Of a stretch of 55,894 nt of DNA, positions 91 to 3,134 are shown piece after piece. This stretch comes from Ignavibacteria bacterium RIFCSPLOWO2_12_FULL_56_21 (GTDB lineage Bacteria; Bacteroidota; Ignavibacteria; UBA10030), in the NCBI GenBank assembly GCA_001802945.1, contig MHAK01000022.1, positions 1 through 55,894 on the forward strand, read 5' to 3'. The notes under the pieces are model-generated. The model made no database searches. It saw only the letters and a list, made by a program, of their open reading frames with translations, and was not told the DNA's origin. The position numbers and the translations under genes are program-made. Position 1 is the stretch's first letter. Each line of letters starts with the position of its first letter.

Positions 91-128
91 AAGTCCCGTA
101 GGGACGTCCTATTTGTAGCTCTACCCTA
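91..128. repeat. GTCCC-GTA-GGGAC hairpin repeat at the 3' end of the aminotransferase gene
   Basis: GTCCC (93-97) and GGGAC (101-105) form a perfect 5-bp stem with a 3-nt loop, followed by GTCCTATTTGTAG. The element abuts the TAG stop of the minus-strand aminotransferase (126-128), so it would be the first thing transcribed after that gene. I recall similar GTCCCTACGGGAC elements as dispersed repeats in FCB-group genomes, but copy number cannot be checked here. There is no clear T-tract, so it is not called a terminator. The rest of 1-90 holds nothing recognisable. Confidence 0.45.
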
Positions 129-1484
129 CTGTCGAAAGAATTGCGCAATGCTTTCCACAACGAAAGCAATCTGATGTTCCTTTAATTCAGGAAAAATCGG
201 CAATGCCAAGCTATGTTCTGCCACTGAATCAGCCACCGGGAACGCCGTCTGCGATGGTTTCAGGTACGCGAAGCATTCCTGCCTGTGAAATGGCACCGGA
301 TAGTAGATCTCCGTCGCGATCTCCTGCTTCGCAAGAAAGTCCCTCAGCGCATCCCGCTTCTCCACACGGATGACATATTGATTGTAGATGTGACTGCGCA
401 GATCGGAAGATGGAATGGTAGAATTCTGGGTAGTGCTCGCTGATGGAATGGTGGAATGAGAAGATGGAATATTGGAATCTTTTGAAGTGCCTAGAGATGG
501 AGTATTGGAGTTCGGCGTAGAACCTGACTTTGGAGGATTGGAGTTCGATGGAGAACCTGATTGTGGAGTATTGGAGTTCGAGGTAGAGCTCAGTGATGGA
601 GTATTGGAGTATATGGAATCTGGAAGGAGAACTCGGTTTTGTCTGTCAAACGCTGTTCTTCCAGGTCCCGCGGAAAGTCCTGCCTTCAAGAACAGACTGT
701 TGTAAAGCTCTGCATTATTCTTGCGTCCTTCCGACCAAGAATTCAGATGAGGCAATTTCACGCGGAGGACCGCCGCCTGTAGGGCATCGAGCCGGAAATT
801 GCCTCCGATCATCTTGTGATAATACTTCGGGTGCATTCCGTGGACGCGCTGGTACTTCATCATTTCATACAAATCGGGATCGTTCGTTGTCACTAATCCC
901 CCATCACCGTAACCTCCTAAATTCTTACTGGGAAAGAACGAAAAACATCCGATGTCTCCGATCGTCCCGACTTGCCGCCCATCCTTGTACTGCACGCCGA
1001 TCGCCTGGGCGGCATCTTCAATGACTTTGATCCCCCGTTCCCTCGCGATTGTCATAACAGGGTCCATGTCAGCGGATTGACCAAACAGGTGCACGGGGAT
1101 GACAGCCTTGGTGTGGGAATGAATGGAATGTTGGAATAATGGAATGGAAATGTTAAAGCTCTTAGGATCGATGTCAACAAATACCGGCTTCGCATTCAGC
1201 CGTGATACCGCGCCGGCCGTTGCGAAGAAGGAGAACGTCGGCACAATGACCTCGTCACCCGGCCCCACGCCGATCGCCATCAACGCAAGCAAGAGCGCGT
1301 CGGTCCCGGACGAGACCCCCAACGCATACTTGACTCCAATGTACTCCGCGATCTCTTTCTCGAACACCTCCACCTCGGGACCGAGAATGAAGTGCTGAGA
1401 TGCAGCGACGCGAAGAACAGCAGCATCCAATTCGGACTTCAGAGCTAGGTACTGCGGATGGAGGTCTAGAAGGGGGACTTTCAT
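126..1484 (-). CDS. DegT/DnrJ/EryC1/StrS family aminotransferase with in-frame repeat tracts
   Basis: 452 residues; a PLP-dependent sugar aminotransferase of the type that makes amino sugars for surface polysaccharides. Visible family features are the N-terminal VPLLDLHPQY, SSGTDALLLAL near residue 60, the IEDAAQAIG stretch near 155 with the cofactor-binding Asp, and FFPSKNLGGYGDGG with the PLP lysine at about K187. The ATG at 1484 gives the canonical N-terminus. It is odd in carrying a Ser/Asn/Thr/Pro-rich tract at about residues 291-364 that the family lacks, and a short atypical stretch at 112-123. Both match degenerate GGAAT-type DNA repeats. The tract lies in the C-terminal domain, between the NRVLLP strand and YNQYVIRV, so the fold might survive with an exposed loop. 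The gene is open throughout. Family assignment is firm; substrate and activity are unknown. Confidence 0.9.
   Translation of the reverse strand: MKVPLLDLHPQYLALKSELDAAVLRVAASQHFILGPEVEVFEKEIAEYIGVKYALGVSSGTDALLLALMAIGVGPGDEVIVPTFSFFATAGAVSRLNAKPVFVDIDPKSFNISIPLFQHSIHSHTKAVIPVHLFGQSADMDPVMTIARERGIKVIEDAAQAIGVQYKDGRQVGTIGDIGCFSFFPSKNLGGYGDGGLVTTNDPDLYEMMKYQRVHGMHPKYYHKMIGGNFRLDALQAAVLRVKLPHLNSWSEGRKNNAELYNSLFLKAGLSAGPGRTAFDRQNRVLLPDSIYSNTPSLSSTSNSNTPQSGSPSNSNPPKSGSTPNSNTPSLGTSKDSNIPSSHSTIPSASTTQNSTIPSSDLRSHIYNQYVIRVEKRDALRDFLAKQEIATEIYYPVPFHRQECFAYLKPSQTAFPVADSVAEHSLALPIFPELKEHQIAFVVESIAQFFRQ
393..614. repeat. Degenerate GGAAT/GGAGT tandem words inside the aminotransferase gene
   Basis: On the plus strand the segment is built from variants of TGGAATATTGGAAT and GATGGAGTATTGGAGTT, repeated roughly every 15-40 bases. 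Read on the minus strand they encode a Ser/Asn/Thr/Pro-rich loop (about residues 291-364 of the aminotransferase) with recurring SNTP and STIPS words. The unit length varies and the copies are diverged, but the reading frame is kept. Confidence 0.7.
1113..1151. repeat. Second GGAAT repeat tract in the aminotransferase gene
   Basis: This stretch contains GAATGGAATGTTGGAATAAT followed by GGAATGGAAATG, the same words as the larger tract at 393-614. It encodes about residues 112-123. The flanking residues FNI and TKAVIPVHLFGQ are family-typical, and the spacing between them matches my recollection of family members. The repeat therefore seems to replace native codons rather than lengthen the protein. 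Confidence 0.6.
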
Positions 1485-1518
1485 GAGCCTGTGAAGTTCA
1501 ATTATGAAGCATTATTTG

Positions 1519-1567
1519 GTAAATAGTGAACCTGCCCGCCGTATGAGTTCTCTGAGGGCAGTTGGGT
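1519..1567 (-). repeat. Hairpin repeat copy A, left of the four-helix-bundle gene, inverted relative to copies B and C
   Basis: The plus strand reads AAATAGTGAACCTGCCCGCC, then a variable centre, then GAGGGCAG. Its reverse complement aligns to copy C (2071-2120) with about six differences over 47 bases by eye. The internal stem CTGCCC/GGGCAG is preserved. With copies B and C on the other side, it brackets the small gene at 1606-1926. The rest of the 1485-1605 gap is A/T-rich wording such as GTAAATCGTGGATCGTTAAT. Confidence 0.7.
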
Positions 1568-1605
1568 CGTGAATCGAAAAGCGTAATGCCGTAAATCGTG
1601 GATCG

Positions 1606-1926
1606 TTAATCGTCAATTGCATCCATAGTGTCATTATACGTACGCTCATCGATCATTTCCAGTTTGCGCGCGATCTCGACCAGTGTATCCAATTCGCTCA
1701 ATGAACCCTGAGAAATTTCCAGAAATCGGGTGCGATCTTTTGGACTTCGTTTTGCCATGCCTTCAGCAATATTTGAAGGAACGGATATAGCAGCACGTTG
1801 AATCTGTGCGCCCAAAACATAAGTCTGCTCTTTTGGCAACTTGGCGGACATGCGGAAGACAGTGCACACCAAATCGACAGCCTTCTGCCAGACTCGCAGA
1901 CTCTTATGCGGCCTATTTGCTCTCAT
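1606..1926 (-). CDS. Four-helix bundle protein (S23/IVP-like family)
   Basis: 106 residues from the chosen ATG. The family is the small four-helix-bundle group once called S23 or intervening-sequence proteins, found as 23S rRNA insertions and as free-standing genes; their function is not established. Diagnostic text includes LRVWQKAVDLV near the N-terminus, QIQRAAISVPSNIAEGMAK in the middle and EISQGSLSELDTLVEIA toward the end. An upstream in-frame TTG at 1941 is possible, but ATG 1926 is preferred because AGGGAGG lies 5 bases before it, an ideal ribosome binding site. Inverted copies of a hairpin repeat lie on both sides (1519-1567 and 1981-2120), which suggests that the gene and repeats travel together. 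It is separated from its neighbours by unusually repeat-rich DNA. Confidence 0.88.
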   Translation of the reverse strand: MRANRPHKSLRVWQKAVDLVCTVFRMSAKLPKEQTYVLGAQIQRAAISVPSNIAEGMAKRSPKDRTRFLEISQGSLSELDTLVEIARKLEMIDERTYNDTMDAIDD

Positions 1927-1980
1927 GGCTCCCTCCCTCAAGGAATCATTGAGAATTCAGAGAAACGAATTCCGATTGAC

Positions 1981-2027
1981 TACCCGCCTGCCCTCTGAGA
2001 CCTTATATGGCGGGCAGGTTTACTATT
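1981..2027 (+). repeat. Hairpin repeat copy B
   Basis: It begins TACCCGCCTGCCCTCTGAGA and ends GGCGGGCAGGTTTACTATT. CCTGCCC pairs with GGGCAGG across a loop of about 18 bases, and CCCGCC/GGCGGG is an alternative pairing. It differs from copy C at about two positions over the shared length. It lies upstream of the four-helix-bundle gene, in the opposite orientation to copy A. Confidence 0.75.
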
Positions 2028-2070
2028 AACGATTCACCTCATCAGCTCAACGCACCGCTTTGCGATTGTC

Positions 2071-2120
2071 TACCCGCCTGCCCTCTGAGACCTAATATGG
2101 CGGGCAGGTTCACTATTTAC
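2071..2120 (+). repeat. Hairpin repeat copy C
   Basis: Near-identical direct repeat of copy B, starting 90 bases downstream, and running into TTCACTATTTACTATT. The TTTACTATT-type linker recurs after the next hairpin as well, so the gap 1942-2177 is a small array of GC-rich hairpins joined by A/T-rich linkers. No gene is visible in the gap. Confidence 0.75.
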
Positions 2121-2126
2121 TATTCT

Positions 2127-2165
2127 CTACCCCTCGACTTCGCTCGGGGCAAGTTTACTATTCAC
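2127..2165 (+). repeat. Third hairpin with a different core but the same linker
   Basis: ACCCCTCGACTTCGCTCGGGG can fold as a stem of about 6 bp around CTTCGC and is followed by AAGTTTACTATTCAC. The linker matches the tails of copies B and C but the hairpin core differs, as if cores were interchangeable cassettes. It ends 12 bases before the stop of the next minus-strand gene. Confidence 0.5.
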
Positions 2166-2177
2166 CCATCCAACGCT

Positions 2178-3134
2178 TTACAATCGCAGCTTCACGTCCA
2201 CATGTGGCACGAACTCGACGAATCCACCGCCGCGCATCACCGGACGTAATTCCGCTCTGGCTTCAACCGTTCGATTCGCACGCGACACTTCCCATGCCGC
2301 CTCGAGCGCGGAAAGAACGTGGTTTGCGACGATGACGAGGCTGGCCGTTCTCGCAATGTTGTACATCTCGTTCGCGCCTCCCCGCATGTCCCTGTATATC
2401 AAAAAGTTCGGCGACACGTTGTCCGTCAGAATGTTCCCCGGCGTGAATCCCGAAGCATCGTTCCAGCCTCCGCCATATTGCGGATATTTGCCGATCAGCT
2501 CATAGTATTGCTGCTGCGGCCGGGGAGGCAATCGATGAGTGAAGCCGTTGCCCACAGCCTGGGCGATCTCTTCTTCGCATTGATTCAACCTGGTCCAGTC
2601 GATCCGGTCCCAGGGGTTTGCGGCGTTGGGATTCACGATGATCTGGTCCCTGCTCCACGTTGAGCCGGCGTTGAGCTGCGACTGCCACTGAATGATCCAG
2701 TCAACGTACCTCGTGACGTCCCAGTTCGCGTCCGCGTATTGTTCGAATCTCGCGGTACGATTGTCGGCCCAGTGAATGTATGAGGCGTAGATGACCCAAA
2801 GAGAAACCTCGGCGCCGGCAAAAGCCAGGCTCTTCCAGCTCAGCGACCAGTCCTGTGCGTATGACTGTCCGAGTCCAGGTAGAGCGGCAGAGTATAGAGC
2901 TGCGGTCAACGGAGACTTTTTCGCATCCATCGCGGGGGGAGCTTCCTGCGCCTGAATGCCGGAAAGCATCGCAGTCCGAAGGTCTTTTGAGCCGGACCCA
3001 TCCGTTCCCATGATGAAGAACGCCCACACATTTTGTTTCGGCGGCGGCGAAGGCCGGAATGGAGCATACAATTGCGCATATGACTGAGAAACACAAAGTA
3101 GCGCTATGAAGATTATGAATTTCAAGTGTGACAT
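2178..3134 (-). CDS. DUF5683-like exported protein
   Basis: 318 residues. The N-terminus MSHLKFIIFIALLCVSQSYA is a clear signal peptide, so the protein is exported. The recognisable part is near residues 75-125, where ALYSAALPGLGQSYAQDW is followed by a hydrophobic segment containing SLAFAGAEVSLWVIYASYIH. This PGLGQ-plus-helix arrangement resembles the DUF5683 family of Bacteroidota. A second hydrophobic stretch lies at ARTASLVIVANHVLSALEAAW. The C-terminus ends in short beta-like strands (VEFVPHVDVKLRL), compatible with envelope location. It sits 27 bases downstream of the peptidase/propeller/barrel gene and probably ends the export operon. Function unknown; family match by eye only. Confidence 0.75.
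   Translation of the reverse strand: MSHLKFIIFIALLCVSQSYAQLYAPFRPSPPPKQNVWAFFIMGTDGSGSKDLRTAMLSGIQAQEAPPAMDAKKSPLTAALYSAALPGLGQSYAQDWSLSWKSLAFAGAEVSLWVIYASYIHWADNRTARFEQYADANWDVTRYVDWIIQWQSQLNAGSTWSRDQIIVNPNAANPWDRIDWTRLNQCEEEIAQAVGNGFTHRLPPRPQQQYYELIGKYPQYGGGWNDASGFTPGNILTDNVSPNFLIYRDMRGGANEMYNIARTASLVIVANHVLSALEAAWEVSRANRTVEARAELRPVMRGGGFVEFVPHVDVKLRL

Follow-up and report, generated by a model that had tools for sequence, protein, structure and literature searches.

The PF05635/TIGR02436 family is common in bacteria, was first found in rRNA intervening sequences and is still without a known function. One of its members lies between inverted hairpin repeats in the window, the stretch of 55,894 nt analyzed here, which makes up all of contig C22 in a draft genome of 3.36 Mb. 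The first-pass annotation read this arrangement as a possible non-autonomous mobile cassette, which raises the question of what unit the gene belongs to and where that unit ends. The gene (1606..1926, minus strand) was delimited by PF05635 and TIGR02436 matches and by alignment to a relative in G001, a genome of the same genus, and encodes a four-helix-bundle (S23/IVP) protein of 106 aa with a shortened C-terminus. The protein matched PF05635 at 113 bits (1e-32) and TIGR02436 at 104 bits (6e-30), in agreement with the earlier statement that the cargo family also occurs in 23S rRNA; it aligned with the G001 relative at 63% identity, and the solved structure 2gsc is a further relative (E 1.8e-24). 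Based on the open reading frames, the upstream neighbor is a DUF5683-like gene (2178-3134, minus strand) and the downstream neighbor a DegT-family aminotransferase gene (126-1484, minus strand). Both are protein-coding, so the locus is not inside a 23S rRNA helix. The ORF list, a survey of arm positions and the predicted fold indicated that the whole element corresponds to the intergenic gap from the upstream stop codon to the downstream start (1485..2177, minus strand).

The three hairpins were located as first described, with the gene between them and copy A inverted to copies B and C. B (1981..2027, plus strand) and C (2071..2120, plus strand), both on the 5' side of the gene, matched the hairpin profile at 1952-2050 (89 bits) and 2045-2145 (85 bits), and A (1519..1567, minus strand), on the 3' side, matched it at 1495-1595 (82 bits). 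A repeat search of the window recovered B and C as a direct repeat pair (1957-2035 / 2047-2125, 85%). A is inverted to C over 65 nt (1519-1583 vs 2056-2120, 85% complementary) and to B at 80% (1519-1584 vs 1965-2030). When the intergenic stretch was folded as RNA, A was predicted to pair with C around the gene (z = -6.5). When the 3' flank was reverse-complemented and locally aligned to the 5' flank, the score was 45, the highest among the 14 four-helix-bundle genes of this genome, while the flanks of control genes had a median of 9.5 and reached at least 25 in 0.6% of cases. The score derives chiefly from the hairpins; the heptamer runs of the window are short and degenerate.

Such hairpins could be the ends of a non-autonomous cassette moved by a transposase that recognizes them, in a REP/RAYT-like or MITE-like manner. 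Their inverted arrangement around the gene, the 12 dispersed copies of the hairpin family, the seven Y1 transposase-like genes of the genome and the absence of the gene from this site in the same-genus relative are consistent with this explanation, and A, B and C resemble REP/RAYT palindromes in being short, dispersed palindromic repeats with many intergenic copies. The genome-wide distribution of the hairpins argues against it. Exact GGCGGGCAGG cores numbered 64, compared with 11 for the reversed control pattern, and sorting by loop and flanks assigned 12 of them to the A/B/C type and 10 to a sister type. Nine of the 12 A/B/C-type copies, and most of the 64 cores, were found elsewhere in the genome, away from four-helix-bundle genes. 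Conversely, a core within 600 bp was detected for 3/14 of these genes (on C22, C23 and C14) and not for the other 11, and the window's gene was the only one with cores on both sides. The figure of 3/14 exceeds uniform placement, yet hairpins and four-helix-bundle genes both reside in intergenic DNA. Moreover, the dispersed pair of gene copies in G001, described below, has no A/B/C-type hairpin in common. On these counts, the hairpins are not the limits of a cassette that carries four-helix-bundle genes, and we regard a hairpin-bounded cassette as improbable. Thus, the part of the earlier proposal that stands is a gene between inverted repeats that has moved within the genus; the hairpins as mobile boundaries do not. 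REP elements of RAYT systems have a conserved 5' guide tetranucleotide (GTAG/GGAG); a CTAC/CGAC edge is seen in many of the hairpin copies. Among the seven Y1-like matches, one lies on C39 at approximately 550 bp from a sister-type hairpin, and this hairpin adjoins a gene-less inverted heptamer run (C39:1000-1950, locus L059); no RAYT gene flanked by A/B/C-type hairpins was found in this genome.

In the window, the three copies of this dispersed GC hairpin overlie arms of another kind. The A/T linker reported for the repeats is present, but is itself a degenerate heptamer array. On the 3' side, the run CAATTGACGATTAACGATCCACGATTTACGG (1589..1619, minus strand) holds the stop codon of the gene. 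On the 5' side, GTGAATCGTTAATAGTAAACC (2017..2037, minus strand) lies between B and C in inverted orientation relative to the 3' run, and the repeat search linked the two through an inverted match (1598-1616 / 2019-2037); AGAGAATAGTAAATAGTGAACC (2107..2128, minus strand) adjoins C, and GTGAATAGTAAAC (2153..2165, minus strand) is the outermost run, separated by about 12 nt from the stop codon of the upstream gene. The window gene is about 14 C-terminal residues shorter than its G001 relative, and its terminal codons and stop fall within the run at 1589-1619, suggesting that the array has taken the place of the original C-terminus; some other upstream genes likewise terminate within an arm. As for the hairpins, they may have arrived independently, or one side may have been copied to the other.

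The heptamer arms, rather than the hairpins, proved to be general: four-helix-bundle genes in several phyla are bracketed by degenerate 7-8 nt arrays whose two arms are reverse complements of each other. Many flanks of these genes carry degenerate tandem heptamers or octamers. Within 250 bp of the gene, the 40 loci of the window's family had 123 period-7 and 40 period-8 arrays per 100 kb, and the 80 named loci 240 and 27. At more than 2 kb from the gene, the density was 0.3-27 per 100 kb over both periods and 0.8-27 for period 7. Other periods gave a few scattered arrays at most, except for the 14-nt harmonic. To score orientation, 200 bp upstream of each gene was aligned to the reverse complement of 200 bp downstream, and a score of at least 14 was taken to indicate inverted arms. 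Median scores were 18 in the window's own genome, 17.5 in its family and 22 in the named genomes, whereas medians of 9-10 resulted when the flanks were aligned in direct orientation, were shuffled or were paired with those of other loci. The threshold was reached by 10/14 genes of the own genome, 38/51 of the family, 61/82 of the named genomes and 21/30 from 28 further loci spread over the phylum, that is, approximately 70-75% in four samples; in direct orientation the corresponding numbers were 0, 5, 13 and 6 genes. Inverted heptamer arrays, with or without hairpins, are therefore the feature common to most four-helix-bundle genes, and no clear inverted arms were seen at approximately 25-30% of these genes or at half of those on plasmids.

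A trivial explanation would be that the gene is an ordinary small gene in repeat-rich intergenic DNA, with the bracket a by-product of low complexity. The hairpins, which are indeed dispersed intergenic repeats, fit this account. However, control genes reached the threshold in 5.0% of 1,236 cases (5.7% of 383 small control genes), random stretches of related genomes contained 0-28 period-7/8 arrays per Mb whereas, in the same family, the DNA up to 250 bp from the genes contained roughly 1,600 per Mb, and the arms are locus-specific, as set out below. Low complexity is refuted for the family as a whole and, as a reading of the bracket, receives almost no weight from us; it may account for some details of the window's own locus.

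The samples share ancestry in part, and the majority of loci come from draft or metagenome assemblies. The 80 named loci, which include Acidobacteriota, Pseudomonadota, Fibrobacterota, Kiritimatiellota and Uhrbacteria, lean to Prevotella and its relatives because they were found with a two-sequence alignment; the phylum-wide set and a set of finished plasmids were added to offset this lean. The finished plasmids, from Cyanobacteriota and Gemmatimonadota, agreed in part with the draft and metagenome loci, with inverted arms at 6/12 genes compared with 11% for cross-locus pairs. In general, 5' arms were purine-rich (G/A) and C-poor, which indicates a strand-asymmetric process. In the window's genome, the gene on the dnaG side (L007, flanks of 1495-1833) has arms of the CCAAACGGT type with a period of about 9, which shows that the repeat unit can depart from 7-8 nt.

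Next to their inverted orientation, the arms are specific to each locus: arms of other loci in the same genome matched at only 4-7%, and they are therefore not the terminal repeats of one transposon. As to placement, the 5' arm sets in at the stop codon of the upstream gene (median -1 nt, n=78), and the 3' arm reaches to within 7.5 nt (median, n=74) of the downstream start; for ordinary same-strand gaps, the median is 52 nt. Both neighbors are on the strand of the gene at 68/80 and 36/50 loci, against a background of 52%. Occupied sites include the gap adjoining recA in 17 Prevotella-type genomes and the ftsA-ftsZ gap in the window's family. At the recA site, the heptamer varies by species (GGTTAGA, GGGCAAG, GGTGAGA, GGTAAGA and others), and the two arms match within each. 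Across the 17 species, the mean score of a gene's own arms was 25.1 compared with 15.8 for permuted partners, and the maximum of 10,000 permutations (21.1) remained below the observed value. Six genomes with the ftsA-ftsZ site showed the same trend (mean 18.75 vs 13.8), which did not lie beyond all permutations. The gene tree grouped by site with five changes, the minimum. Most genes are thus passed on at their sites, with turnover of the arms around them, and movement is rare. In two species with 97% identical FtsZ, the arms already differed in length. Arrays distal to the genes carried the heptamer type of the locus in 24% of cases (vs 1.3%); we dropped the broader idea that the distal arrays of a genome are all of its own heptamer type, as it applied to these 24% only. 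Solo arrays numbered 0 in 348 kb of gene-poor genomes and 6 in 356 kb of gene-rich genomes, a difference that may point to a genome-wide coupling between gene number and solo arrays.

Matched arms that change together could reflect selection on RNA. On this account, the arms are a selected RNA structure, the resident protein binds or protects the intergenic stem, in autoregulation or the processing of operon mRNA, and the gene is not mobile. In predicted RNA folds, the flanks paired by at least 25 bp for 80% of 149 genes but for only 15% of 150 controls, and this fits the account, as do the co-variation of the arms, their vertical persistence at sites and the co-orientation with neighbors, a bias that would also suit an element acting as RNA. 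The wobble test lent no support. Mismatches between arms comprised 161 of the G.U type and 197 of the A.C type, with no wobble excess, and flank pairing in the predicted folds was equal for sense and antisense. We therefore rejected selection for RNA pairing as the sole cause of the matched arms; the missing G.U excess points to copying at the DNA level, and RNA may have a role as well. The presence and absence of the gene within a genus and the dispersed copy in G001 also count against an immobile, RNA-selected structure, and we consider it unlikely.

Orthologous sites provided evidence of gain or loss. At the ftsA-ftsZ gap, the gene is present in 13/27 genomes and absent in 14. Within one genus, the gap is empty in G010 (74 bp) and filled in G022, G025, G027 and G029. 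In G021, the 189-bp ftsA-ftsZ gap (L322) holds inverted GCAGAAT-type arms without a gene, in contrast to the filled gaps of related genera. The comparison of relatives called for by the first-pass annotation yielded an empty site for the window itself: in G001, the gap between the DUF5683-like gene and DegT lacks a four-helix-bundle gene. This gap (L122:4741-4915) contains gene-less inverted heptamers (GAATGGAAAATG / CATTTTCCATTC). The empty site is evidence that the gene moved or was lost and does not support the hairpins as the limits of a mobile unit; of the two findings that together would have spoken against the cassette, hairpins dispersed without association with the genes were observed, and a gene occupying the same site in all relatives was not. 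The closest relatives of the window's protein are two G001 copies, one just after DegT and the other beside an rmlA-like gene on another contig. Their alignment extends over 432 bp (82% identity) and takes in the 5' arm and the gene up to its last codons; the flanks are unrelated. The pair shows that a unit has dispersed, although not recently. No target-site duplication and no transposase were found for the element.

A period of 7-8 is typical of target duplications, and the arrays could accordingly be footprints left by an element that inserted and excised again and again, each time with a 7-8 bp target duplication, so that their length would count past visits. The gene-less inverted arms at the G021 ftsA-ftsZ and G001 DUF5683-DegT gaps are compatible with this. 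Footprints predict neither two arms in mutually inverted copy nor a heptamer type common to a locus and its distal arrays (24% vs 1.3%), and we consider this explanation highly improbable.

Among known systems, the closest is the 23S rRNA intervening sequence (IVS). The IVS of Coxiella burnetii is bounded by 28-bp terminal inverted repeats and carries tandem heptamers (GACAGAT), in two or three copies depending on the strain, just before the S23p start codon (PMC4990558). The window element has the traits of an IVS in that it holds an S23p/PF05635 ORF and is bounded by stem-forming inverted repeats. Likenesses extend to the protein family, an ORF within inverted repeats that form a long stem, a unit of about 430 nt and tandem heptamers just before the ORF (PMC4990558). 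However, IVSs lie in rRNA, whereas units of the window type lie between protein-coding genes in many copies per genome, and their arms are locus-specific heptamer arrays. A second set of candidates comprises the TAACTGA heptamer direct repeats described in Beggiatoaceae, Cyanobacteria and Bacteroidetes (PMC4679880) and the cyanobacterial STRRs; these too are intergenic tandem heptamers, often near start codons, in overlapping host phyla. Arrays of the window type differ from the TAACTGA repeats in being locus-specific inverted pairs around one gene family, and the main text of the TAACTGA paper mentions no S23 or four-helix genes (PMC4679880). Thirdly, Avd of diversity-generating retroelements belongs to a homologous four-helix-bundle fold family (PMC10053308; NF033474). 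The window's protein scored 29.2 bits against the Avd model (cut-off 80), and no RVT_1 (PF00078) match at E<=0.001, a search that divergent reverse transcriptases could escape, was found in the 95%-complete genome. A link to reverse transcriptases or diversity-generating retroelements was rejected because RVT_1 was absent and the Avd score was far below the cut-off; a link to defence was rejected as well, as PADLOC gave no match. Of two top matches to the Avd model (L333 and L334), the one scored showed no inverted arms.

Taken together, the bracket, the locus specificity and co-variation of the arms, the presence and absence of the gene at orthologous sites, the G001 pair and the stop-to-start placement lead us to favor, with moderate confidence, a relative of the 23S rRNA IVS that stands free in intergenic DNA, rarely spreads and has its arms renewed at the DNA level. 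Such a unit would comprise the four-helix-bundle gene and two arms around it, the 5' arm made of degenerate heptamers or octamers and the 3' arm being its inverted complement, and would fill the stop-to-start gap between genes, mostly on the same strand. The arms would lengthen and shorten through slippage and could be kept matched by copying between them, by template switching or conversion between inverted repeats; we place this copying at the DNA level because the mismatches have no wobble excess. In transcripts, the arms would pair into a long stem whose loop contains the gene. RNase III cuts the rRNA IVS and, by analogy, probably also this predicted stem, so that an insertion in an operon would be tolerated. 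Occasionally, the unit may be copied, again at the DNA level, to a new intergenic site.

We tentatively raise a further possibility, that in a widespread class of intergenic elements the four-helix-bundle protein helps to write its own arms, through the addition of tandem 7-8 nt units and copying of the arms from one another, which would give every locus a matched pair of its own that keeps changing. The 23S rRNA IVS would then be a special case, and some cyanobacterial and Bacteroidetes heptamers would be gene-less remnants. Tandem heptamers are an unexplained trait of cyanobacterial and Bacteroidetes genomes, and tying them to the four-helix-bundle family would offer one explanation for both that is open to test; we found no report of the association between this gene family and heptamer arms in open-licence PMC papers. 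Mobility and arm renewal are directly testable through comparison of close strains. As copies lie inside core operons (ftsA-ftsZ, beside recA, CRISPR-cas), they may influence the expression of important genes.

Several single loci deserve mention. On cyanobacterial plasmids, L403 and L413 (cas6 / cas4) and L411 (cas10 / cmr3) have four-helix-bundle genes inserted within cas operons of type I-D-like and III-B, with matched arms at two. L413 (flanks of 1198-1557) is an exception in that the long AAAGCTA/AAAGCCA arrays flanking its gene are direct rather than inverted repeats of each other. The arms of L230 and L200 are of the CCCTAAA type, resembling plant telomere repeats. In the window itself, the DegT-family aminotransferase carries an in-frame low-complexity insert of about 80 aa (398-650), rich in S/N/T/P and built from short repeats such as GGAATGATGGAATATTGGAAT; its G001 relative has just a short stretch at this position.
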